From contig NZ_CAMKXG010000011.1 in NCBI RefSeq assembly GCF_946477055.1, forward strand, positions 1-27,337: a DNA stretch of 27,337 bases. Reading direction: 5' to 3'. The number at the start of each line of letters is the position of its first letter. Within the stretch, counting starts at the first letter, position 1. The notes under the pieces were generated by a model that made no database searches, was not told where the DNA came from, and saw only the letters and a list, made by a program, of their open reading frames with translations. A program made the translations under genes and the position numbers. The DNA comes from Lonsdalea britannica. GTDB lineage: Bacteria; Pseudomonadota; Gammaproteobacteria; Enterobacterales; Enterobacteriaceae. Of the stretch, positions 16,592 through 27,337 are shown piece by piece.

Positions 16592-17346
16592 AAATCACCC
16601 TACTGCAACAACCGCTGGCGTGGATGGATGGTCCCGCCAACCTGAGCCACTTCGACGCGTTATTGGAAAACATTACCGGACGCGACCTGATTCTGCTGCC
16701 GGAAATGTTCACCACCGGATTCGCAATGGAAGCCGCCGGACACAGTCTGGAACAGTCGGTCGTGGAAGCCTGGCTCTGCCAGTGGGCGCAGCGCACCAAT
16801 GCGCTCATCGGCGGCAGCGTGGCGGTGCAGACCCCGAAAGGGGCGGCGAACCGTTTTCTGTTCGCCGATCCGCACGGCACGCTGTACCGCTACGACAAGC
16901 GGCACCTGTTCCGCATGGCGAACGAACATCAGTATTATCAGGCAGGAAAGAAGAAGCTGGTGGTGGAGTGGCGCGGCTGGCGCATCATGCCGCTGGTCTG
17001 CTACGACCTGCGCTTCCCGGTCTGGGCGCGCAATCAGCAGGATTACGATCTGCTGCTGTATGTCGCCAACTGGCCGACGCCGCGCGCTCATCACTGGAAG
17101 ACGCTGCTGACGGCCCGTGCGATTGAAAATCAGAGCTATGTGGCGGGCTGTAACCGCGTCGGCACCGATAACAACGGCCATAGCTATCAGGGCGACAGCG
17201 TCATCCTCGATCCGCTCGGTCAGACGCTGGCCAGCGCCCCAGAGAATCAGCCCGCGCGGCTGGATGCGGAGCTATCGCTGGAAGCGCTGCAAGCCTATCG
17301 GGAAGCCTTCCCCGCCTGGCGCGACGCGGACGCATTCACCCTCTAG
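16579..17346 (+). CDS. mtnU: Omega-amidase / 2-oxoglutaramate amidase (YafV, MtnU)
   Basis: A 255-residue nitrilase-superfamily enzyme with the Glu-Lys-Cys triad at Glu42 (LLPEMFTTGF), Lys107 (YRYDKRHLF) and Cys141 (LVCYDLRFPVW). It hydrolyses 2-oxoglutaramate, the keto product of glutamine when MtnE uses glutamine as amino donor, to 2-oxoglutarate and ammonia, pulling the transamination forward. The ATG at 16579 lies inside the 3' end of mtnE in a different frame (13-bp overlap), with GGAG upstream, so the two are translationally coupled. This arrangement supports MtnE being a glutamine transaminase here. Confidence 0.93.
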   Translation: MSTLKITLLQQPLAWMDGPANLSHFDALLENITGRDLILLPEMFTTGFAMEAAGHSLEQSVVEAWLCQWAQRTNALIGGSVAVQTPKGAANRFLFADPHGTLYRYDKRHLFRMANEHQYYQAGKKKLVVEWRGWRIMPLVCYDLRFPVWARNQQDYDLLLYVANWPTPRAHHWKTLLTARAIENQSYVAGCNRVGTDNNGHSYQGDSVILDPLGQTLASAPENQPARLDAELSLEALQAYREAFPAWRDADAFTL

Positions 17347-17475
17347 TCAGCGCTACGCTGCTTGCTGCCTCATGATGTAAGTCAGCGCTTACACTGATGC
17401 AGCAAAGCCCTCGCCACCCGGCGACATGTCCGCCCCGCACACCGCCTGCGGAGAAGGCTTAACCTGCTCCGCGAG

Positions 17476-18744
17476 TCATCCTTTACGCATTGCGCCGACG
17501 TTCACCACCGTCAGCAATAACGCCTGCAACGCCTGCGCCACATCGTCAGTAAGCACTGACTCATCAGGATGATGGCTAATGCCGCCGCGACAGCGCACGA
17601 ACAGCATGCCTACCGGCCAACGTTCGGCGATGGCAATGGCGTCGTGGCCTGCGCCGCTCGGCAGCGACAGCCCCGTTCCCTGCACCGCCGTCACGGCGTC
17701 AGATAACGTCGCCTGCAGCTCGGCGTCACAGCGCGTCGCGGGAATACGATAATACTCCTCCGCGCTGAACTGACATCCGCGCAGCATGGCGATCTCCTTC
17801 GCCGCCGCCAGCAACCGGGTCAGCAATGTCTCCAGCGCCGTATCTTCCGGACCCCGAATATCCAGCGTCAGCCGCACCTCGCCGGGAATAACGTTGGCCG
17901 CGCCCGGCAAACACTGCAACGTCCCTACGGTTGCCACCAAATGCGGATCGCTCGACTGCGTCAGCGCTTCCACCTGCGTCATCCAGACCGCCGCGGCCGC
18001 CAGCGCATCCTGTCGTTGCCCCATCGGCACCGTGCCTGCATGACCGGCATGACCGACAAACGTACAGTTCAAGCGCCGCGCGCCGTTGATCGCCGTCACC
18101 ACACCCAGCGCCAGTCCCGCTTGCTCCAGACACGGCCCCTGTTCGATATGCAGCTCCAGATAGGCCAGAATATCGCTCGGCGACCGCGCCGCCTCTCCGA
18201 TCGCATCGGCGGACAAACCGGCCTGCGTCAGCGCGTGCGACACGGAAACGCCATCGGCGTCCTGACATTCCAGCCACACTGCAGGCCAGGTGCCGGTCAG
18301 TCCGCGACTGCCCAGCAGCGTGATGCCGAAGCGCGTGCCCTCCTCGTCGCCGAACCCCACGATCTCCAACGCCACCGGCAGCCGAATTTGACGTTGATGC
18401 AGGTAGCGAACGGTCTCCAACGCGCAGAGCACGCCCAACATCCCGTCGTAACGACCGGCATTGCGCACCGTGTCTAAATGCGAACCGAGCAGCAGCGCCG
18501 GGGCATGGGCCGTTTCGCCCTCGTAGCGGCCGCAAATATTGCCCACGCTATCCTGCCAGACACGCATTCCCGCCGCCCGCATCCACTCGCCCACCACCTG
18601 GTTGGCGCGCAGATGCTCTTTCGACAGGTAGACCCGCGTGAGTTGGCCTGCGCCTTCCGAAATCTCCGCCAGCGCATCGCAGCGATCCATAACCTGCCGC
18701 GCGGCGTCGAGCGCCTCGGCAGCCGTCATCGCCACGTGACTCAT
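17476..18744 (-). CDS. hpxK: Allantoate amidohydrolase
   Basis: A 422-residue M20-family (allantoate/N-carbamoyl-amino-acid amidohydrolase) enzyme. Metal ligands are seen at His89 in LLGSHLDTV, Asp100 in RYDGMLGVL, the Glu pair in GFGDEEGTRFG, His in LELHIEQGP and the late His in GISHHPDE. It hydrolyses allantoate, releasing ammonia and CO2 and yielding ureidoglycine, the substrate of HpxJ. The start at 18744 overlaps the hpxJ stop as ATGA. It is the last gene of the six-gene operon. A close relative acting on carbamoyl-beta-alanine cannot be excluded from sequence alone, but the HpxJ neighbour makes allantoate the best assignment. Confidence 0.9.
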   Translation of the reverse strand: MSHVAMTAAEALDAARQVMDRCDALAEISEGAGQLTRVYLSKEHLRANQVVGEWMRAAGMRVWQDSVGNICGRYEGETAHAPALLLGSHLDTVRNAGRYDGMLGVLCALETVRYLHQRQIRLPVALEIVGFGDEEGTRFGITLLGSRGLTGTWPAVWLECQDADGVSVSHALTQAGLSADAIGEAARSPSDILAYLELHIEQGPCLEQAGLALGVVTAINGARRLNCTFVGHAGHAGTVPMGQRQDALAAAAVWMTQVEALTQSSDPHLVATVGTLQCLPGAANVIPGEVRLTLDIRGPEDTALETLLTRLLAAAKEIAMLRGCQFSAEEYYRIPATRCDAELQATLSDAVTAVQGTGLSLPSGAGHDAIAIAERWPVGMLFVRCRGGISHHPDESVLTDDVAQALQALLLTVVNVGAMRKG

Positions 18745-19985
18745 GCGGACGCCTGCTGGCTGGCGTAGACATCCCATGCGGCCTGCAACGCCGCGCCCTG
18801 TACAGAGCGGAAGCCCAGACGGTTCAGTACCGCTTCCAGCGCGGTCAGCGTCTGCATGATGCAGTCTTTGCGCGCGTTGTAGCCCATCGTACCGATCCGC
18901 CAGATCTTGCCCTGCAACGGTCCAAAGGAGGTGCCGATCTCAATGGCGAAATCCTCCAGCAGCAGCTTACGCACGGCTTCACCGTGAATGCCCTCGGGGA
19001 TCGTCACACCCAAAACGTTGTTCATGCGATGCGCCGGATCGCCGTAAGCTTTCAGTCCCATCCCTTCGATCCCGGCCAACAGCGCCTGACCGTGCAGCGC
19101 ATGGCGAGCGATGCAGGTATCCAGCCCCTCTTCCAGAATAATGCGAGCGCACTCGCGGGCGGCGAACAGCATACTGGTCGCTTCGGTGTGGTGGTTTAAC
19201 CGCTCCGGCCCCCAGTAGTCCATGATCATGCCCAGATCGAAGTAGTTGGAGTACACCATCTCCTCATCGCCATCTTGATGATCGTCGGTGCGGATCCCCT
19301 GCTCCACGCACTTGCGCTGGCGGATCGCCGCTTCCATGCGCTCGCTGATCGTCACCGGCGAACTGCCGGACGGACCGCCAAGGCACTTTTGAAGTCCGGC
19401 GGATACGCCATCCAGACCCCAGGCATCGGTCTCCAGCGGGTTACCGCCGAATGACGCGGTGGCGTCGGTGTAAAACAGCACGCCATGACGTCGGCAGATG
19501 TCGCCAAGTTCGTCCAGCGGCTGGAGCATCGTCGTCGAGGTGTCTCCCTGCACGGTCAACAGCAGACGCGGTTTGACCCGCTTCACGGCCTCTTCGATGC
19601 GGTCAGGCGTGAATACTTCGCCCCACGGCGCTTCAATCGTATGCACCTCGGCGCGGCAGCGACGGGCAATCTCACACAGCAGATGACCAAAGCGACCAAA
19701 CACCGGAACCAGCACGCGATCGCCGGGGCGGATCGCAGAAACCAAAACGGCTTCGATCCCGGAACGCGACGTGCCGTCCACCAGCATCGTCCAGCGGTTT
19801 TCGGTACGAAACAGCTGCCGGTATAGCGCCATGACCTGATTCATGTAGCCGGTCATCACCGGATCGTACTGGCCAATCAACTGACTGGACATCGCCCGGA
19901 GCACGCGCGGATCGGCGTTAATCGGGCCCGGCCCCATCAGCAGACGATGAGGCGGATTAATTTGGGCGAACAGTTCGCTTTGCAT
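18741..19985 (-). CDS. hpxJ: Ureidoglycine-glyoxylate aminotransferase
   Basis: A 414-residue class V PLP aminotransferase resembling Klebsiella HpxJ (UGXT) and related to alanine-glyoxylate aminotransferases. LLMGPGPINADPRVLRAM opens the domain, LVDGTSRSGIEA and YTDATASFGGNPL bind PLP, and Lys200 in SAGLQKCLGGPSG forms the Schiff base. GTSFGPLQGKIWRIGTMGYNA is the C-terminal substrate region. It transfers the amino group of unstable ureidoglycine to glyoxylate, giving glycine and oxalurate. CAGGAG lies nine bases before the ATG. Its gene follows the transporter ATPase by 81 bases and overlaps hpxK. Confidence 0.92.
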   Translation of the reverse strand: MQSELFAQINPPHRLLMGPGPINADPRVLRAMSSQLIGQYDPVMTGYMNQVMALYRQLFRTENRWTMLVDGTSRSGIEAVLVSAIRPGDRVLVPVFGRFGHLLCEIARRCRAEVHTIEAPWGEVFTPDRIEEAVKRVKPRLLLTVQGDTSTTMLQPLDELGDICRRHGVLFYTDATASFGGNPLETDAWGLDGVSAGLQKCLGGPSGSSPVTISERMEAAIRQRKCVEQGIRTDDHQDGDEEMVYSNYFDLGMIMDYWGPERLNHHTEATSMLFAARECARIILEEGLDTCIARHALHGQALLAGIEGMGLKAYGDPAHRMNNVLGVTIPEGIHGEAVRKLLLEDFAIEIGTSFGPLQGKIWRIGTMGYNARKDCIMQTLTALEAVLNRLGFRSVQGAALQAAWDVYASQQASA

Positions 19986-20066
19986 AGTGGTTAACTCCTG
20001 ATGTCCTTAATTCATGGTGTGCGTTGACGCGCCGGACGGAGAACAACGTACCGGCTGCGCCGCGCG

Positions 20067-20810
20067 TCAGGCTTCGGTCAGCCCGCGCACGGAGGCAATA
20101 AACTGTTTCAGTTCCGGGGTCTGCGGCTGGGCGAACAGGCGGGACCCTTCGCCCTGTTCCCACACTTTGCCCTGATGCATAAACACCACGCGGTCGCCGA
20201 CTTCGCGGGCGAAGTTCATTTCGTGGGTGACCAGAATCAGCGTCATGCCCTCCGCCGCCAGCTGTTCCAGCACTTTGAGCACTTCGCCCACCAGCTCCGG
20301 GTCTAACGCCGAGGTGATTTCATCGCACAACAGCACCTTCGGATTCATCGCCAGCGCGCGGGCGATGGCGACGCGCTGCTGCTGGCCGCCGGACAGATTG
20401 GCGGGATAGTAGTTTCGCCGTTCGCCCAGTCCGACTTTATCCAGCATCTGCTCGCCCAGACTGCGGCACTCCGCCGCGCTTTTGCCCAGCACCAACCGGG
20501 GCGCCAGCATCACGTTTTCCAACGCGGTCATGTGCGGGAACAGATTGAAATTTTGGAAAATCATGCCGACGGAACGGCTGATTTCACGCGCCTGAGACTC
20601 GCGGTCGGTAATCGTCATTCCGCCCAGCTTGATGCTGCCTTCCTGATAACCTTCCAGACCGTTGACGCAGCGCAGCAGCGTACTTTTTCCCGAGCCGCTG
20701 CGCCCGATGATGGAGATCACTTCGCCCATCTCGACGTCCAGGTCCACGCCCTTTAACACGTGGTTTTGACCGTAAAACTTATGAACCTGATTAATGGTGA
20801 TGAGCGGCAT
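20067..20810 (-). CDS. Polar amino-acid-type ABC transporter, ATP-binding protein
   Basis: A 247-residue ATPase of the GlnQ/HisP type. The Walker A motif is IIGRSGSGKST (residues 35-44), the Q-loop is IFQNFNLFPHMT, the signature is NLSGGQQQRVAIARAL, Walker B is VLLCDEITSALDP, and the switch His lies in LVTHEMNF. The start at 20810 (MPLITINQVHKFYG) lies within the 3' end of the upstream permease gene, a 20-bp overlap. It powers uptake by the two permeases and the binding protein upstream. Position in the operon corresponds to one of hpxF-I of Klebsiella, an inference from gene order; I do not assign the letter. Confidence 0.92.
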   Translation of the reverse strand: MPLITINQVHKFYGQNHVLKGVDLDVEMGEVISIIGRSGSGKSTLLRCVNGLEGYQEGSIKLGGMTITDRESQAREISRSVGMIFQNFNLFPHMTALENVMLAPRLVLGKSAAECRSLGEQMLDKVGLGERRNYYPANLSGGQQQRVAIARALAMNPKVLLCDEITSALDPELVGEVLKVLEQLAAEGMTLILVTHEMNFAREVGDRVVFMHQGKVWEQGEGSRLFAQPQTPELKQFIASVRGLTEA

Positions 20811-21447
20811 TGAATTTCTTCTCCAGATAGCGGCTGTAGTAAGACAGCGGGTAGCACAGCAGGAAGTAGCCGAGCGCCACCAGCCCAAACACCTTGAAGG
20901 GCTGATAGGTGACGTTGTTCAGCATGGTTCCGGCCTTGGTCAGCTCGACAAAGCCGATGATGGACGCCAGCGCCGTGCCCTTGATCACCTGCACCGAAAA
21001 GCCGACCGTCGGGGCAATGGCGATGCGCATCGCCTGCGGCGCGACGACCCGGCTCAAGGTTTGCCAAAAGCTCAGTCCCAGACAGCGCGAGGCTTCCCAC
21101 TGGCCGCGCGGCAGCGCCAGTACGCTGCCGTGCCAGATATCCACCAGAAACGCGCTGGTGAACAGCGTCAGCGCCAGCGCGGCGGCCACCCACGGACTAA
21201 CGTCAATGCCGAACAGACCCAGACCAAAGAAGGCGAGGAACAGCTGCATCAGCAGCGGCGTGCCTTGAAACAGATTGGCGTAAGCGCGGGTCAACCGCAG
21301 CGGCCAGGGACGGCGGGTCAGACGCAGCAGCAACAGCGGTAACGTCACCAGCGCCCCACCGAAGAACGCGGTCAGCGACAGCAACACCGTCCAGCGCCCC
21401 GCCAGCAGCAGGTTGCGCACTATATCCCAGTCGGTAAAGTTCATCAT
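20791..21447 (-). CDS. Polar amino-acid-type ABC transporter, permease 2
   Basis: A 218-residue inner-membrane permease of the HisMQ/GlnP family, with about five hydrophobic segments (for example LLAGRWTVLLSLTAFFGG and VAAALALTLFTSAFLV). The EAA loop that contacts the ATPase is QWEASRCLGLSFWQTLSRVV. It pairs with permease 1 as a heterodimer. Start ATG at 21447 overlaps the stop of permease 1 as ATGATGA; a second ATG follows immediately. The substrate is probably a ureide such as allantoate or allantoin, inferred from HpxJK in the same operon. Confidence 0.9.
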   Translation of the reverse strand: MMNFTDWDIVRNLLLAGRWTVLLSLTAFFGGALVTLPLLLLRLTRRPWPLRLTRAYANLFQGTPLLMQLFLAFFGLGLFGIDVSPWVAAALALTLFTSAFLVDIWHGSVLALPRGQWEASRCLGLSFWQTLSRVVAPQAMRIAIAPTVGFSVQVIKGTALASIIGFVELTKAGTMLNNVTYQPFKVFGLVALGYFLLCYPLSYYSRYLEKKFNAAHHH

Positions 21448-22112
21448 GCGCCCTGCGTTCCCAGAAAACGTCGCCCTAACATCATCAGCAGTTGACGCAT
21501 CAGCAGCGACAACGCCAGATACAGGAGCGTAGTGACCAGATACACCTCAAAGCTTAAGAAGGTGCGAGATTGGATGAGGTTGGCGGCGAACGTCAGCTCT
21601 TCGTACGACACCTGCGACACCACCGAGGAGCCGAGCATCACGATGATGCACTGACTGACCAACGCCGGATAAATCCGTTGCAGCGCAGGCGGCAAAATCA
21701 CCCGCAGAAACGTCTGCGTGCGCGTCAATCCCAGCACCCGGCAGGCTTCCCACTGCCCTTTCGGCGTCACCTGAATGCCCGCGCGGATGATCTCGGTGCT
21801 GTAGGCCCCGAGATTCACCAGCATGGCGATCAGCGCCGCCTCGCCTGCGGTTAATTTCAGCCCCAACCCCGGCAGGCCGAACACGATAAAGAACAGCTGC
21901 ACCACGAACGGCGTATTGCGAATCGCTTCGACGTAAACGCCCCACAGCCCGCTCAACACGTTCGGCTTGCCGCTGCGCAACGCGGCGCCGCAGATGCCGA
22001 TGGCGATGCCGCCGACCGTGGCGAGCACCGTCAGTTGCACGGTGACCCACAGACCGGCCAGCATGTCCGGCCAGTAAGGCCACAGCGAGGCGAAATCAAG
22101 CTGATAGGTCAT
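21444..22112 (-). CDS. Polar amino-acid-type ABC transporter, permease 1
   Basis: A 222-residue permease of the same family as its neighbour but clearly diverged. It has hydrophobic segments such as VTVQLTVLATVGGIAIGI and VVQLFFIVFGLPGLGL. The EAA loop is QWEACRVLGLTRTQTFLRVI with following LPPALQRIYPAL. ATG at 22112, nine bases after the binding-protein stop, with GAGGG overlapping that junction. It forms the membrane channel with permease 2. Confidence 0.9.
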   Translation of the reverse strand: MTYQLDFASLWPYWPDMLAGLWVTVQLTVLATVGGIAIGICGAALRSGKPNVLSGLWGVYVEAIRNTPFVVQLFFIVFGLPGLGLKLTAGEAALIAMLVNLGAYSTEIIRAGIQVTPKGQWEACRVLGLTRTQTFLRVILPPALQRIYPALVSQCIIVMLGSSVVSQVSYEELTFAANLIQSRTFLSFEVYLVTTLLYLALSLLMRQLLMMLGRRFLGTQGA

Positions 22113-22121
22113 GCGTTACCC

Positions 22122-22913
22122 TCACGCGCCCAGATTGGCGGGCAGCGGCGCCTTCAGCCACTTCTGCGACAGGCCATTCAGCGTATTGTCTTTTACCGCC
22201 TTTTCGATCAGCGCATTGACCTTCTCTTTCAAGGCGGGTTCGTCTTTTTTCAGGCCGATAAAGCACGGCGAATCTTTCAGCATGAATTTCGCCACCGGCG
22301 CTTTCGTCGGATTCTGCGCAGCGATGGCCGCGACCACCAGGTTGCCGGTCGCAATGTACTGCACCTGTCCGGACAGATAAGCCGACAGCGTGGTGTTATT
22401 GTCTTCGTAGCGTTTCAGCTGCGCCTCTTTCGGCGCGAGGTCGGTCAGCACCATATCTTCCACCGCGCCGCGAGTGACGCCCACGCTTTTGCCCGCCAGC
22501 GCCTGAGGATTGCTCAGGTCGCCGTCTTTCGGTCCGAACACGCCCAGGAAGAACGGCGCGTAGGCACGGCTAAAGTCGATCACCTTTTCGCGCTCGGCGT
22601 TTTTACCCAGGCTGGAGATCACCAGATCTACCTTATTGGTTTGCAGATAAGGCACGCGGTTGGCGCTGCTCACGGGCACCAACTGCAACTTTAGTTTCAT
22701 CTCGCTGGCCAGATAGCGCGCCATGTCGATATCGTAGCCCTGCGGCTGAAGGTCCGTGCCGACTGAGCCAAACGGCGGGAAGTCCTGCGGCACGGCGACG
22801 CGCAGTACGCCTCGTTTTTCAATGTCTTGCAGCTGGTCAGCCAGGGCATGGCCGGCCTGTACGAAAAACAGTGCCGCGCTGATCACGGCCAAGAAACCTT
22901 TTCGGATATTCAT
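22122..22913 (-). CDS. Periplasmic solute-binding protein of the ABC transporter
   Basis: A 263-residue SBP_bac_3 family protein. Residues 1-25 form a Sec signal peptide (MNIRKG, core FLAVISAALFFVQAG, cleavage after GHALA). The mature part shows the family order: IEKRGVLRVAVPQDFPPFGS, PQGYDIDMARYLASEM, NKVDLVISSLGKNAEREKVI, LAGKSVGVTRGAVED and a C-terminal WLKAPLP. It captures the substrate for the two permeases; family members usually bind amino acids, so the ureide ligand is inferred from the operon. It is the first gene of the operon and is preceded by a sigma-54 type promoter, two NtrC-like sites and a candidate repressor operator. CAGGAGCAGAGCG precedes the ATG. Confidence 0.92.
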   Translation of the reverse strand: MNIRKGFLAVISAALFFVQAGHALADQLQDIEKRGVLRVAVPQDFPPFGSVGTDLQPQGYDIDMARYLASEMKLKLQLVPVSSANRVPYLQTNKVDLVISSLGKNAEREKVIDFSRAYAPFFLGVFGPKDGDLSNPQALAGKSVGVTRGAVEDMVLTDLAPKEAQLKRYEDNNTTLSAYLSGQVQYIATGNLVVAAIAAQNPTKAPVAKFMLKDSPCFIGLKKDEPALKEKVNALIEKAVKDNTLNGLSQKWLKAPLPANLGA

Positions 22914-22937
22914 CGCTCTGCTCCTGGTTCGCCAATT

Positions 22938-22953
22938 TGAAACAAAAGATTCT
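22938..22953. promoter_or_regulatory. Second, weaker candidate HpxU site
   Basis: TGAAAC-AAAA-GATTCT matches the ideal palindrome TGAAAC-N4-GTTTCA in the whole left arm and four of six bases of the right arm. It begins 29 bp from the stronger site at 22967-22982, about three helical turns, in the leader of the transporter operon. Confidence 0.35.
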
Positions 22954-22966
22954 TAATAAATGATAG

Positions 22967-22982
22967 TGAAACTATCGTTACA
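22967..22982. promoter_or_regulatory. Candidate HpxU operator at the transporter operon
   Basis: TGAAAC-TATC-GTTACA overlaps the expected transcription start (near 22981) of the sigma-54 promoter. The same arms occur in front of hpxU at 24332-24347. It is a near palindrome of TGAAAC-N4-GTTTCA, the kind of site RpiR-family regulators bind. A nested palindrome GATAGT-GAA-ACTATC covers 22962-22976. Confidence 0.55.
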
Positions 22983-22990
22983 AATCAGTG

Positions 22991-23007
22991 AGCAAAATAT
23001 ATGCCAA
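22991..23007 (-). promoter_or_regulatory. Sigma-54 (RpoN) promoter of the transporter-hpxJK operon
   Basis: On the minus strand the sequence TTGGCATATATTTTGCT has GG at -24 (23004-23005) and GC at -12 (22992-22993), exactly ten bases apart, with TTGGCA and TTTTGCT matching the consensus TTGGCAC-N5-TTGCT except one base. Transcription would start near 22981, giving a leader of about 68 bases before the binding-protein gene. NtrC-like sites lie 140-190 bp upstream. Confidence 0.78.
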
Positions 23008-23147
23008 TAATGAGATGATGAAACCGGGGGAACTTGCGTCAGAAAAAAGCGCGGGCAATCCTTGAGATAAGCCTTTTCTCAGATGAAGCGGAGAAAATCA
23101 TCGCGCAGAACGGCAAGTATTAAACGGAGACGGGGCCTCGACATGAT

Positions 23148-23181
23148 GCACCAATGAGGAGCAATAGCACTATTGTGGTGC
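23148..23181. promoter_or_regulatory. Tandem NtrC-like binding sites
   Basis: GCACCAATGAGGAGC (23148-23162) and GCACTATTGTGGTGC (23167-23181) fit the NtrC pattern GCAC-N7-GTGC, the second perfectly and the first with one mismatch in its right arm. Their centres are 19 bp apart, at about -174 and -193 of the sigma-54 start. This is an enhancer arrangement for nitrogen-limitation control. Confidence 0.75.
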
Positions 23182-23482
23182 TGAAGACCGGCACATCGCT
23201 GAGCGCTACCGGCATTGATTCGGCATGTGTTCACAAGCGCCCGCCACGCTCTTCAAGGTAAACGGCAATCGCCCATATCGACGACGTTCAGGCCGATGAC
23301 GTCTGGGATTCGGGTTCGTGAGATAAACCGATAATTCTGATGTGGCAAGGGCAGACGCGCGAGATCACCCGGTGAATTGGAGGCCGCGAAAGCCGAAAGC
23401 GAGAAATACCCACGCTCGGATTCGGCAAACTCGGGCAGGACGGGCGAACCGGCCGTGTTTCCCCGCAAGGGCTAAGCTTCGC

Positions 23483-24322
23483 CTAGCGTTGCTCCAACTC
23501 ATCCAGCTGTTGATACAGATCGGCAATATGATGAATACGCTGACGCCCGTCCTGCAACATTTCATGCAACAGCGCGTTGCTTAGCAGATTGACCAATCCC
23601 ATCGCAGAGGCGTAGCTGTCAAAGGCGGATACGCTGTCCAGCGGCGCGCTTAGCGTCCAGGTCGCCAACGGTTGCAGACTGTGGGCCTGCGGCTCGCACA
23701 GCAACAACACCGGCACCTGTTTTTCCTGTAATTGGCGAAGCAGAGACGGGATCAGGCGTGGACGGCGGCGGAACGCGGCCACGATCACGACATCCTGTGG
23801 ACTCAGATCGGCCAGCTCTTCCGCCAGCGTCTGACCCGGCTGGGCTAAAAGACAGACCTGCGGCCTTACCTGCAACAGCTGCTGGCGTAGATGCAGCGCC
23901 ACCGGATAACTGTTGCGCAGCCCGATCAGGCAGACGCGCTGAGCCTGCTGCAGCGCGGCGATGACCGCGCCGAACTGCACCGGATCGATCTGATTAACCC
24001 ACTGGGTCAGGTTCGCCATTTCCTGCTTATAGTGGCGCGCCAGCAGGGTATTTCCCTGCACCGCATCGCGGTTGTCGGCCAGCGGCATACCGCTTTGGCG
24101 CAGCGTGCGCAGCTCATCGCGCATTTCCCGGTAGCTGGGGTAGCCGAGGCGACGAAACAACCGGCTGACGGTCGCCTTGGAGACGCCGCACAGGCGCGAC
24201 AGCTCCGCGCTGTTGTAGCTGATCAGGTCGTCGAGGTGATCGAAAATAAACTCCGCGACCCGCCGCTCCTGAGGGGAGAGCGCATTAAAGTGGCTGCGTA
24301 GCCGTTCATCAATCTGCTTCAT
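23483..24322 (-). CDS. hpxU: RpiR/MurR-family transcriptional regulator HpxU
   Basis: A 279-residue regulator. The N-terminal HTH_6 domain (residues about 1-75) contains LSPQERRVAEFIFDHLDDL and the helix-turn-helix ELSRLCGVSKATVSRLFRRL. A SIS domain follows from about residue 110 (RVCLIGLRNSYPVALHLRQQLL, LSPQDVVIVAAFRRRPRLIPS), which in this family senses a small, often phosphorylated, ligand. The start at 24322 has AGAGG five bases upstream; the in-frame ATG at 24352 does not. It is divergent from hpxWXY, and a TGAAAC-N4-GTTACA motif lies 10 bases before its start, suggesting autoregulation. The name rests on the match of gene context to Klebsiella hpxU-W-X-Y; the inducer is unknown. Confidence 0.85.
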   Translation of the reverse strand: MKQIDERLRSHFNALSPQERRVAEFIFDHLDDLISYNSAELSRLCGVSKATVSRLFRRLGYPSYREMRDELRTLRQSGMPLADNRDAVQGNTLLARHYKQEMANLTQWVNQIDPVQFGAVIAALQQAQRVCLIGLRNSYPVALHLRQQLLQVRPQVCLLAQPGQTLAEELADLSPQDVVIVAAFRRRPRLIPSLLRQLQEKQVPVLLLCEPQAHSLQPLATWTLSAPLDSVSAFDSYASAMGLVNLLSNALLHEMLQDGRQRIHHIADLYQQLDELEQR

Positions 24323-24331
24323 GCCTGCCTC

Positions 24332-24347
24332 TGTAACTTTCGTTTCA
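24332..24347. promoter_or_regulatory. Candidate HpxU operator at hpxU
   Basis: On the minus strand TGAAAC-GAAA-GTTACA has the same 6+6 arms as the site at 22967-22982. It lies immediately upstream of the hpxU ribosome-binding site, in the hpxU-hpxW divergent region. Confidence 0.55.
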
Positions 24348-24410
24348 GCCATTCACGGTATCGCTGCACCTTAGCACACCTCTCAGCGAGAACGGCAAGA
24401 GGAAAAATAG

Positions 24411-24426
24411 TGGAATGCTTCTTGCT
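24411..24426 (+). promoter_or_regulatory. Sigma-54 (RpoN) promoter of hpxWXY
   Basis: TGGAATGCTTCTTGCT has GG (24412-24413) and GC (24424-24425) exactly ten bases apart, and matches TGGCACG-N4-TTGCT at all but two of the fixed positions. Transcription would begin near 24437, about 107 bases before the hpxW ATG. Only an NtrC half-site (TGCACC at about 24365) is visible upstream. Confidence 0.6.
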
Positions 24427-24543
24427 TTTGTTAGTTATCGATTGTCCGTGGGCATCCCTCACCGCGCGATGTCTGGCCTTGGATTGATGACTCGCCAGCG
24501 TTGGCCGCCGGAGTCTTGCCCCCTAGCGTTGGGAATCTTTTAT

Positions 24544-26130
24544 ATGATGCACAGTAATATTGCGCCTGCCGGTATGGCGGTGACGCCTCATCACCTCGCC
24601 AGCGCCTCCGCGCAGGCGGTGCTGCGGGAGGGCGGAAATGCGATCGAAGCGATGGTCGCCGCCGCCTCCACCATCGCCGTCGTCTATCCGCACATGAACA
24701 GTCTGGGCGGAGACGGTTTCTGGCTTATCGTGCCGCCGCAGGGCGACCCCATTGCCATCGACGCCAGCGGACCGGCTGGCTCGCTGGCCAACCGCGCAAT
24801 GTATGACGGAATGGCGCGCATTCCTCATCGCGGTCCCAACGCCGCCATCACCGTGGCGGGCACCGTCGGCGGATGGCAGGAAGCGTTGCGCTACGCCGCC
24901 GAGCTGGGCGGGAAATCGCTGCCGCTGAAGCGGCTGCTGGCCGATGCGATCCGCTACGCCGAACACGGTATTCCCGTCACGCCCTCGCAGTCGGACGCGC
25001 TCACGCAGCACTTTGAGGCTCTCAGCGCCCACGCCGAATTTCGCCGCGTCTTCTTGCCGGACGGCACGCCCCCTTCCCCCGGGAGCCGCTTCACTCAGCC
25101 CGATCTCGCCCGCACGCTAACGCAGCTGGCGCAAGACGGTCTGGACAGTTTTTATCGCGGCCCGCTGGCCGATACCTTAGCGGCGGCGATGACCCAGGTC
25201 GGGATGCCGGTGACCCGAGACGATCTGGCCAACTATCGCGCCAAACGCGTCACGCCCCTGAGGCTGGCCCACAGTCAGGGCGAGATCTTCAATCTGGCGC
25301 CGCCGACGCAGGGGCTGGTGTCATTGGCGATCCTCGGGATCGCCGACCGCCTCGATATGGCCGATCTCAACGATGCGCAAACAATCCATCGCGTCGTCGA
25401 AGCCACCAAGCTCGCGTTCGAACTGCGCGATGCCTTCATCACCGATCCCAGACTCGTCACGCAAGATATCCCCGCGCTGCTCAGCGCCGATGCGCTGGAA
25501 GCATTGAGCGCCCGCGTGAATACCGATGCCGCCGCGCCGTGGGGAGAAGGTAAAGGCCCCGGCGATACCGTCTGGATGGGCGTATGCGACGGCAACGGCC
25601 TGTCGGTTTCCTTTATTCAAAGCATCTATCACGAATTCGGCAGCGGCGTCGTACTGCCCGAGACCGGCATCGTCTGGCAGAACCGGGGAGCCTCGTTCAG
25701 CCTCGATCCGCACCATCTATTGGCGCTGGAACCGGGCAAACAGCCGTTTCACACCCTGAATCCCGCCGCCGCACGGCTGTCCGACGGGCGGACGATGGTC
25801 TACGGATCGATGGGCGGAGACGGCCAGCCGCAAACTCAGGCGGCGCTGTTTATCCGCCATATCGTGCAGGGACTGCCGCTCCAGCAGGCCATCGCCGCGC
25901 CCCGCTGGTTGCTGGGGCGCACCTGGGGACAAACCTCCGATAGCCTGAAACTGGAGGACCGCTTCACGGCCGCCACCGTCGACACGCTACGCGGGCTGGG
26001 CCACGAGGTGGAGATGCTACCCGACTTCAGCGAGAGCGTCGGACACGCAGGCGCCATCGTGCGCCATACTAACGGTATGCTCGAAGGGGCGTTCGACCCG
26101 CGCAGCAACGGCAGCGCCCTCGGCTTTTAA
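24544..26130 (+). CDS. hpxW: Oxamate amidohydrolase, gamma-glutamyltransferase fold
   Basis: A 528-residue Ntn-hydrolase of the gamma-glutamyltransferase family. It should self-cleave before Thr342 in GPGDTVWMGVCDGNG to give two subunits, with Thr as nucleophile. VYPHMNSLGGDGFW, ASGPAGSLA, TVAGTVGGW, FIQSIYHEFGSGV, TLNPAAARL and YGSMGGDGQPQTQA are typical. There is no signal peptide, unlike periplasmic GGTs. The K. pneumoniae homologue hydrolyses oxamate to oxalate and ammonia at the end of the uric acid route. The frame is open 43 codons further upstream, but MMHSNIAPAGMAV at 24544 aligns with Klebsiella HpxW; the ribosome-binding site is weak. First gene of hpxWXY, 39 bases before hpxX. Confidence 0.92.
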   Translation: MMHSNIAPAGMAVTPHHLASASAQAVLREGGNAIEAMVAAASTIAVVYPHMNSLGGDGFWLIVPPQGDPIAIDASGPAGSLANRAMYDGMARIPHRGPNAAITVAGTVGGWQEALRYAAELGGKSLPLKRLLADAIRYAEHGIPVTPSQSDALTQHFEALSAHAEFRRVFLPDGTPPSPGSRFTQPDLARTLTQLAQDGLDSFYRGPLADTLAAAMTQVGMPVTRDDLANYRAKRVTPLRLAHSQGEIFNLAPPTQGLVSLAILGIADRLDMADLNDAQTIHRVVEATKLAFELRDAFITDPRLVTQDIPALLSADALEALSARVNTDAAAPWGEGKGPGDTVWMGVCDGNGLSVSFIQSIYHEFGSGVVLPETGIVWQNRGASFSLDPHHLLALEPGKQPFHTLNPAAARLSDGRTMVYGSMGGDGQPQTQAALFIRHIVQGLPLQQAIAAPRWLLGRTWGQTSDSLKLEDRFTAATVDTLRGLGHEVEMLPDFSESVGHAGAIVRHTNGMLEGAFDPRSNGSALGF

Positions 26131-26169: not shown

Positions 26170-26367
26170 ATGAGCGAGATAAAACTTGATGACGCCGCGC
26201 TGGCCGACTATCTGCGGCAGATGGAAACGTTGCTGGCGCTGGAGTTAGATCCGGCCCGCCGCCAGGAATTGCAGCGACAGTTCAGCCGCATCGCCGAGAT
26301 GGCGCAGCCGCTGATGGCCTTTCCACTGGACGAACGTCAGGAAGTCGCGGGGGTCTATCAGCTATGA
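26170..26367 (+). CDS. hpxX: HpxX, AtzG-like small subunit (DUF4089)
   Basis: A 65-residue, mostly helical protein (LADYLRQMETLLALELDPARR, then LQRQFSRIAEMAQPLMAFPL). Small proteins of this kind precede AtzE-type amidases. In the cyanuric acid pathway AtzG is needed to stabilise AtzE as a heterotetramer, and HpxX is the expected counterpart for HpxY. GAGGG lies six bases before the ATG. The stop overlaps the hpxY start as ATGA, which fits synthesis of the two subunits in equal amounts. Confidence 0.88.
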   Translation: MSEIKLDDAALADYLRQMETLLALELDPARRQELQRQFSRIAEMAQPLMAFPLDERQEVAGVYQL

Positions 26368-27337
26368 GTACGATGCGTCACCCCGGCAGCTATTCCATTG
26401 ATGAACTTCAGGCGCTGCAAGAGAGCGGCGAACTGTCCGCGCAAGACATCGCTCAGCAGACGCTGGCGCACATTGCGCAGCGTAATCCCCAGCTCAACGC
26501 CTATACCCGCGTCACCGAGACGCGCATGCTGGAAGAGGCCGCGCAGCTCGATCGACAACGCCGCGACGGCTGCGCGCTGCCCGTGCTGACCGGCGTGCCG
26601 TATGCGGTCAAAAATCTGTTCGATGTGGCAGGAGAAACCACGCTGGCGGGAGCCCAACTGTTTAGCCAGCGCGCCCCTGCCGCGCATGACGCCTACGCCG
26701 TCTGTCGACTGAGCGCTCAAGGCGCGCTGCTGTCGGGGATGTTGAATATGGACGCCTACGCCTACGGCTTTACGACGGAGAACACCCACTATGGCGCAAC
26801 CCGCAACCCGCATGACCTGACGCGGATTGCGGGCGGCTCTTCCGGCGGTTCCGCTGCGGCGGTCGCGGCCGGGCTGGTGACCTTCGCGCTCGGCAGCGAC
26901 ACCAACGGCTCCATTCGCGTCCCTTCGTCTCTGTGCGGCATTTTCGGCCTCAAACCCACCTTTGGCCGCCTGTCCCGCCGCGGCACGCAGCCTTTCGTCG
27001 CCAGCCTCGATCACATCGGCCCGATGGCGCGCAACACGGAGGATCTGGCTCAGGTCTTCGACCTGCTGCAAGGCATCGATGCCCACGATCGTTTTCAGAC
27101 GCCGCATTCGTCATTGGACTGCTCGGCCACGCTGAATGATGATACGCCACCGCTGCGCACCAAGATTCTGGCGGGTTATTTCGCCGACTGGTGCGACGAA
27201 CACGCTAAAACCGCCGTACTGCGGGTCGCGCGCGCGCTGGGAGCCAATGAGAATGTGTTGATCGACGATGCCGCGCTGGCCCGCACGGCCGCCTTCCTCA
27301 TCTCCGCCAGCGAAGGCGGTAATCAATACCTGCCCGC
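26364..27337 (+). CDS. hpxY: HpxY, AtzE-family amidase, 3' end beyond right edge
   Basis: The first 324 residues of an amidase-signature enzyme (full family length about 460). The Ser-cisSer-Lys triad is visible: Lys83 in GVPYAVKNLFDV, cis-Ser159 in IAGGSSGGSAAAVAAG, and nucleophile Ser183 in GSDTNGSIRVPSS, with the 24-residue spacing usual for the family. It resembles AtzE, which deaminates 1-carboxybiuret. In the hpx setting I infer a ureide amidase, possibly acting on oxalurate ahead of HpxW. ATG at 26364 overlaps the hpxX stop. In Klebsiella hpxZ follows, and it should lie just past the window. Confidence 0.9.
   Translation, partial: MSTMRHPGSYSIDELQALQESGELSAQDIAQQTLAHIAQRNPQLNAYTRVTETRMLEEAAQLDRQRRDGCALPVLTGVPYAVKNLFDVAGETTLAGAQLFSQRAPAAHDAYAVCRLSAQGALLSGMLNMDAYAYGFTTENTHYGATRNPHDLTRIAGGSSGGSAAAVAAGLVTFALGSDTNGSIRVPSSLCGIFGLKPTFGRLSRRGTQPFVASLDHIGPMARNTEDLAQVFDLLQGIDAHDRFQTPHSSLDCSATLNDDTPPLRTKILAGYFADWCDEHAKTAVLRVARALGANENVLIDDAALARTAAFLISASEGGNQYLP

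Follow-up and report, generated by a model that had tools for sequence, protein, structure and literature searches.

We analyzed a 27,337-nucleotide stretch of DNA from Lonsdalea britannica (hereafter the window) and propose that its allantoate-salvage operon, hpxFGHIJK, is read from a sigma-54 promoter that would be activated by NtrC and gated by the RpiR-type regulator HpxU. Judging from sequence, we consider this model as a whole very likely. The elements on which it is built, along with their positions, conservation and specificity, were read directly from the window and from related loci.

Gene Content of the hpx Cluster

The six operon genes, which we take to be hpxFGHIJK, all lie on the minus strand from 22913 to 17476, in the single direction described by a first reading of the window made from the letters alone (the sequence-only reading), and presumably form one transcript. 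They encode a solute-binding protein of family 3 (hpxF, 22122..22913), two ABC permeases (hpxG, 21444..22112; hpxH, 20791..21447), an ABC ATPase with an uncertain start codon (hpxI, 20067..20888), a ureidoglycine-glyoxylate aminotransferase (hpxJ, 18741..19985; match to PDB 3nnk with E 7.6e-235) and an allantoate amidohydrolase (hpxK, 17476..18777; 775.5 bits to NF006773 against a cut-off of 584). The best library names for the transporter were amino-acid or ectoine transporters, below cut-off, and the company of the other genes suggests allantoate as its substrate.

Adjoining these transporter, hpxJ and hpxK genes, as in an hpx allantoate cluster, is hpxU (23483..24352, minus strand), an RpiR-type regulator with HTH_6 and SIS domain matches. 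Among the matches listed, many relatives of hpxU start at residue 11, and its true start is possibly codon 11, at 24322. We assigned the name HpxU from gene position and from the title of Guzman et al. (2013, Int Microbiol 16:165-176), in which HpxU is the RpiR-type repressor of the allantoate-catabolism cluster of Klebsiella pneumoniae.

Divergent from hpxU lies hpxW (24415..26130, plus strand), which encodes a gamma-glutamyltranspeptidase-like protein with a match to PDB 5hft. Many of the matches listed for hpxW start at residue 44, the listed ATG falls within a sigma-54-like element, and the true start is probably near 24544. Located 3' of hpxW are a 65-residue frame and a frame that by eye is amidase-like, which we take to be hpxX and hpxY. 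An ORF of 249 amino acids (26358-27107, minus strand) was considered as a further neighbour gene and rejected, being antisense to the amidase-like frame, which runs off the end of the window. Genes of the hpxW type are often misannotated as ggt, as stated in PMC3560190.

Five genomes of a single genus (G001-G005) served as near relatives. None of the five had an AllB-type allantoinase above cut-off, and all five had one of the TIGR03212 type above cut-off, approximately 5.3-5.5 kb from hpxF in each. We take TIGR03212 proteins to act as allantoinases; the operon may therefore be fed by allantoin as well as by allantoate, and the idea that these bacteria depend solely on imported allantoate was dropped.

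A Conserved Sigma-54 Element Precedes hpxF

The sigma-54 -24/-12 element predicted for hpxF, TTGGCATATATTTTGCT (22991..23007, minus strand), starts 94 bp upstream of the hpxF start codon and is of the TGGCAY-N5-TTGC type with GG-N10-GC spacing. The sequence-only reading had placed a GG-N10-GC promoter at exactly these positions. The element is unique in the window, as the strict pattern YTGGCAYR-N4-TTGCW gave one match in these 27 kb and none in 100 dinucleotide shuffles. Ten of the 12 specified bases agree with the E. coli sigma-54 consensus TGGCACnnTTnTTGC, as published in PMC8743547.

To assess conservation, we used the 80 closest of at least 557 confirmed relatives together with the loci of the five near relatives (L090-L094), giving 85 loci from Enterobacterales and Pseudomonas. 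The element was present in 86/86 promoters, including that of the window; scored with weights of our own, it reached the full value in 78 and differed at the first base in eight. The strict pattern matched 79 times in the 1.39 Mb of these 85 loci, in 77 of them, and the eight loci without it are those with A or G as the first base. Among 26 representatives, approximately one per genus, mean pairwise identity was 0.79 for the element and 0.89 for the operator 2-type repeat described below, values that arise partly by construction since both features were located through their own patterns, versus a near-random 0.26-0.36 in the flanks; the 34 bases preceding the element had 0.26-0.29.

At the genome scale, the strict pattern matched nine places in G001 and 11 in G003, against zero and one for the reversed-pattern control. 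Only the two hpxF promoters among these 20 places have an NtrC-type site with all eight arm bases (8/8) within 400 bases upstream, and 7/8 sites lie upstream of three further places in G003. Other places precede frames that by eye encode a glutamate-type and a branched-chain-type binding protein, a PrkA-type kinase and Hcp. G001 is the genome nearest to the window (83% identity over 22700-23600; 29% of sampled words in common), and rpoN was found above cut-off in 5/5 near relatives.

A scan of 17300-23500 found no sigma-70 promoter on the minus strand before hpxF; it gave three sigma-70-like matches versus 1.4 expected, one of them on the plus strand at 22937-22964. Terminator-like sites numbered five versus 5.8 expected.

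An NtrC-Type Enhancer Pair Lies Upstream of the Element

Two tandem GCAC-N7-GTGC-type sites lie between hpxU and the sigma-54 element: a promoter-distal site with 8/8 arm bases, GCACTATTGTGGTGC (23166..23182, plus strand), and an imperfect promoter-proximal site with 7/8, GCACCAATGAGGAGC (23147..23163, plus strand). They are spaced by 19 bp and located 140-191 bp from the element, which bears out the tandem sites that had been noted 140-190 bp upstream. Of the 14 bases of the E. coli NtrC consensus TGCACCAnnnTGGTGCA, as given in PMC8743547, 11 agree with the 8/8 site and 12 with the 7/8 site; the latter is without the TnnTGC arm, described there as highly conserved.

Could these be chance matches, or inherited sequence without function? 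Single NtrC sites with one mismatch do occur at chance level in the window (four found versus 4.7 expected), and one 8/8 site arose in 13 of 2000 shuffles of 22914-23482. Against this explanation, no pair scoring this high with a spacing of 16-36 bp arose in any of the same 2000 shuffles, the sigma-54 pattern was absent from all of its own shuffles, and the elements persisted while their flanks diverged to near-random identity. We regard chance as extremely improbable.

For the comparative analysis of the pair, we considered the 70 of the 85 loci that have hpxW, hpxU and hpxF in order, and defined a pair by a spacing of 18 or 19 bp, a combined score of at least 13 and at least 6/8 at each site. 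In 51/70 loci, the hpxU-hpxF gap contains such an NtrC-like pair; for each of four neighbouring segments, namely hpxF, hpxU, the hpxW-hpxU gap and the initial 600 bases of hpxW, the count is 0/70. Similarly, 45 sites with 8/8 arm bases fall in the hpxU-hpxF gap versus one in the neighbouring segments. With a looser pair rule, 66 of the 78 linked loci qualify. The other 12 have no good 18/19-bp pair, with a combined score below 13 of 16 (L015, L021, L032, L039, L053, L055, L060, L061, L073, L074, L077 and L080), and include three of the five Pseudomonas loci (L039, L053 and L061). Conservation in orthologous regions, the check proposed by the sequence-only reading, did not refute its case: the sigma-54 element is universal in the sample, with these 12 linked loci lacking a good pair.

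In qualifying loci the enhancer is 92-216 bp from the hpxF element, except in five Pectobacterium loci (L002-L006), in which it is at 458-506 bp. Several hundred extra bases separate the NtrC pair from the promoter in these Pectobacterium loci; in the window and closely related loci, extra DNA sits between hpxU and the enhancer instead. This hpxU-enhancer stretch of approximately 300 bp (23183-23482) is absent from most other loci and poorly conserved even among members of the genus. A repeat search of 22914-23482 at the settings used gave none of at least 12 bases, and a simple IHF consensus had no match between enhancer and promoter in the window or in any of the 78 loci.

The glnA promoters of two same-genus relatives served as a positive control, and there too a GCAC-N7-GTGC pair precedes a TGGCA-type element, as at hpxF. 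In the nearest relative, G001 (L139), glnA has the sites AGCACCAATATGGTGCT and AGCACTATTTTGGTGCA, and the 8/8 site of the window is one base off the second of these over a 15-mer. The resemblance to glnA enhancers, which the sequence-only reading drew with E. coli, holds in these relatives for the sites; the spacing differs, being 32 bp at their glnA versus 18-19 bp at hpx loci (19 in the window). A match to ntrC above cut-off is present in 5/5 near relatives. In G001 it extends across three frames and that of glnA across two (G001:C24:33555-37611), each being a single frame in the relatives shown, and these frame breaks are probably assembly errors.

A sigma-54 promoter could be served by an enhancer-binding protein other than NtrC, and the GCAC-N7-GTGC pair would then be a secondary or incidental feature. 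Each near-relative genome encodes many proteins that partly match the NtrC model (TIGR01818, 34 to 40 matches at E<=0.001), a large share of these matches being to the receiver domain alone, and the 12 linked loci mentioned above keep the sigma-54 element without a good NtrC pair. What makes this explanation highly unlikely in our view is that the hpx sites share their type with the glnA sites of the same genus, that 18/19-bp pairs are restricted to the hpxU-hpxF gap among the segments scanned, and that hpxJ promoters separated from the transporter genes carry in 7/7 cases a 7/8 or 8/8 site together with a weaker one spaced 19 bp from it (see below). Taken together, the position, strength and conservation of the elements, and the presence of rpoN and ntrC in relatives, support the predicted control of hpxF-K by sigma-54 and NtrC.

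A Predicted HpxU Operator Overlies the Expected Start Site

An inverted repeat, GAAYC-N4-GTTYCA or one close form, was found in the hpxU-hpxF gap of 70/70 loci. In the window this is predicted operator 2, AAGAATCTTTTGTTTCA (22938..22954, minus strand). It starts 14-15 bases after the sigma-54 element in 18 of the 26 representatives, 26 bases after it in Pluralibacter, and 37-38 bases after it in Dickeya, Pectobacterium, Brenneria, Serratia marcescens (L026), Symbiopectobacterium, Prodigiosinella and the window. The window and 9/70 loci have in the same gap an additional repeat of the form TGWAAC-N4-GTTTCA, which in the window is predicted operator 1, TGTAACGATAGTTTCA (22967..22982, minus strand), beginning eight bases after the element. 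Transcription from sigma-54 promoters starts approximately 12 bases below the GC; with the start assumed there, the nearest repeat overlies the start site, and the window copy of the repeat conserved in all loci lies some 28-44 bases below it.

A sister copy is located at the start of hpxU, TGTAACTTTCGTTTCA (24332..24347, plus strand), and precedes the possible start codon (24322) by approximately 10 bases. The strict form TGWAAC-N4-GTTTCA is present at this place in 62/70 loci and missing in 8/70. To evaluate specificity, we searched whole genomes with TGWAWC-N4-GTTTCA, a pattern that includes operator 1 and the hpxU copy and leaves out operator 2, counting palindromic places once. Two places belonged to hpx in every genome, out of totals of two in G001, five in G002, three in G003, six in G004 and two in G005. 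The reversed-pattern control gave 1, 3, 1, 2 and 1 matches in the same genomes, and the matches outside hpx can thus be taken as background.

The repeat, then, is inverted and sits at the target promoters, is rare elsewhere and co-occurs with HpxU. On the grounds of motif and linkage, the conserved repeat after the hpxF element and its sister copy at hpxU are probably the HpxU operator. An alternative is that the repeat is the site of another regulator, or an RNA or leader feature. Its left arms do differ between the hpxF side (GAAYC) and the hpxU side (TGTAAC), the strict TGWAAC form is absent from the hpxU-hpxF gap in 61/70 loci, and binding by HpxU is itself a prediction from sequence. This alternative nonetheless appears unlikely, as the repeat has inverted arms that are perfect in L026 (TGAAACGATAGTTTCA), it has copies at both hpxF and hpxU, it is rare in the remainder of the genome, and it accompanies HpxU in unlinked loci as well.

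The probable HpxU operator changes how the promoter should be read. The sequence-only reading had called the sigma-54/NtrC architecture complete, and in doing so overlooked the conserved HpxU-operator-like repeat at the expected start site. Its prediction of a direct switch by nitrogen starvation fares well as regards the supported sigma-54/NtrC control, but the repeat at this position suggests that starvation alone is probably insufficient.

Split Clusters Retain the Promoter Module on Both Sides

In seven of the 80 closest loci (L023, L031, L049, L062, L066, L071 and L078), the transporter genes have no adjoining hpxU. All seven genomes encode HpxU elsewhere, with 68-71% identity and beside hpxJ. 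The transporter genes keep their sigma-54 element and repeat in 7/7 loci, the repeat of L078 being GAATT-N4-GTTTCA; the NtrC-like sites there are weaker, with an 8/8 site in the best pair in 0/7. The separated hpxJ has its own sigma-54 element in 7/7 genomes, and a repeat was located by pattern in six of the seven, that of the remaining one, L146, reading GAACC-N4-GTTTCA in the printed sequence. An NtrC-like site with seven or eight arm bases has a weaker partner 19 bp on in all seven. The presence of a sigma-54 element and a repeat on either side in 7/7 genomes indicates that both halves of the split cluster retain the core promoter and the repeat.

A Putative Divergent hpxW Promoter and a Possible Shared Enhancer

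A second sigma-54-like element, GTGGAATGCTTCTTGCT (24410..24426, plus strand), points toward hpxW. An element of this TGGAAY type is found divergent from hpxU in 72/78 regions, including L026, L044 and L060, three loci in which hpxW gave no match; the frame that comes next in L026 and L044 resembles by eye the small gene located 3' of hpxW in the window. The six regions without the element are four from Pseudomonas, whose loci gave no match to hpxW, and two from Tatumella, which read GCGGAACAAAAATTGCTA at this place. The TGGAAY-type pattern is otherwise rare in the 85 loci, with 75 matches in 71 of them.

By eye, no repeat was seen just after the hpxW element in 22 printed regions, those of L026 and L044 excepted. 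In these two loci, TGCAAC-N4-GTTTCA, one base off the hpxU form, overlaps the end of the divergent element, and hpxU is without its strict repeat; a move of the operator to the divergent promoter is possible.

In the vicinity of hpxW, an NtrC pair was found in 0/70 loci (hpxW-hpxU gap, hpxU and the first 600 bases of hpxW), and single sites are few: the 42 kb of hpxW scanned contain one 8/8 site, and neither hpxU nor the hpxW-hpxU gap has any. The nearest candidate enhancer is that of the hpxU-hpxF gap, located 928-1379 bp from the hpxW element in qualifying loci. It is possible, and we put it forward tentatively from this layout, that one NtrC pair at the 3' end of hpxU drives both divergent sigma-54 promoters, those of hpxF and hpxW. 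The hypothetical arrangement would place hpxF approximately 0.1-0.5 kb to one side of the enhancer and hpxW approximately 0.9-1.4 kb to the other, with hpxU between and operators at hpxF and hpxU. Such sharing would fit the induction of HpxWXYZ reported for nitrogen-starved K. oxytoca, in which HpxAB-HpxO-HpxWXYZ were strongly upregulated (PMC8381380).

Proposed Regulation and Relation to Known Systems

Under the proposed model, phosphorylated NtrC would bind the enhancer pair upon nitrogen limitation and loop to RNA polymerase-sigma-54 at 22991-23007, leading to promoter opening. The sigma-54 promoter would then drive hpxFGHIJK and with it allantoate uptake, allantoate amidohydrolase and ureidoglycine aminotransferase. 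In the absence of ligand, HpxU would bind TGAAAC-N4-GTTTCA-type repeats at and after the start site and block transcription; its ligand is probably allantoate or a product, and HpxU probably represses itself through the copy at hpxU. We infer protein binding, direction of control and ligand alike. The operon would thus respond to a two-key switch of nitrogen scarcity and substrate.

The hpxPQT operon of Klebsiella, reportedly found by de la Riva et al. 2008 to be dependent on sigma-54 and Ntr, is said to be a purine-nitrogen operon that combines Ntr control with a substrate signal, as we propose for hpxF-K, with genes and a regulator reportedly other than those of hpxF-K. At the hpxF promoter itself, the Klebsiella loci of our sample (L016, L018 and L019) have one operator-like repeat after the promoter, whereas the window has two.

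The hpx promoters of K. oxytoca have been said to suggest NtrC and sigma-54, with data not shown in that source (PMC8381380); the available part of this purine-scavenging report names no hpxF-K and gives no sites. Among the titles and abstract openings listed for hpx operons, HpxU, hpxW and NtrC with allantoate, none describes the hpxF promoter.

The present analysis supplies the exact predicted HpxU operator, and the loci offer two natural experiments: one on enhancer distance, in the five Pectobacterium loci whose enhancer lies at 458-506 bp, and one on module mobility, in the seven split genomes, each of which has the module twice. The proposed control of hpxF-K would illustrate well a type of gene switch that is already familiar.

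Our results suggest direct nitrogen control of allantoate salvage for many Enterobacterales, several of them plant-associated, and for some Pseudomonas. Plants transport nitrogen in the form of allantoate, among other compounds, so a gate that answers to both starvation and substrate is a plausible adaptation to life in plants.
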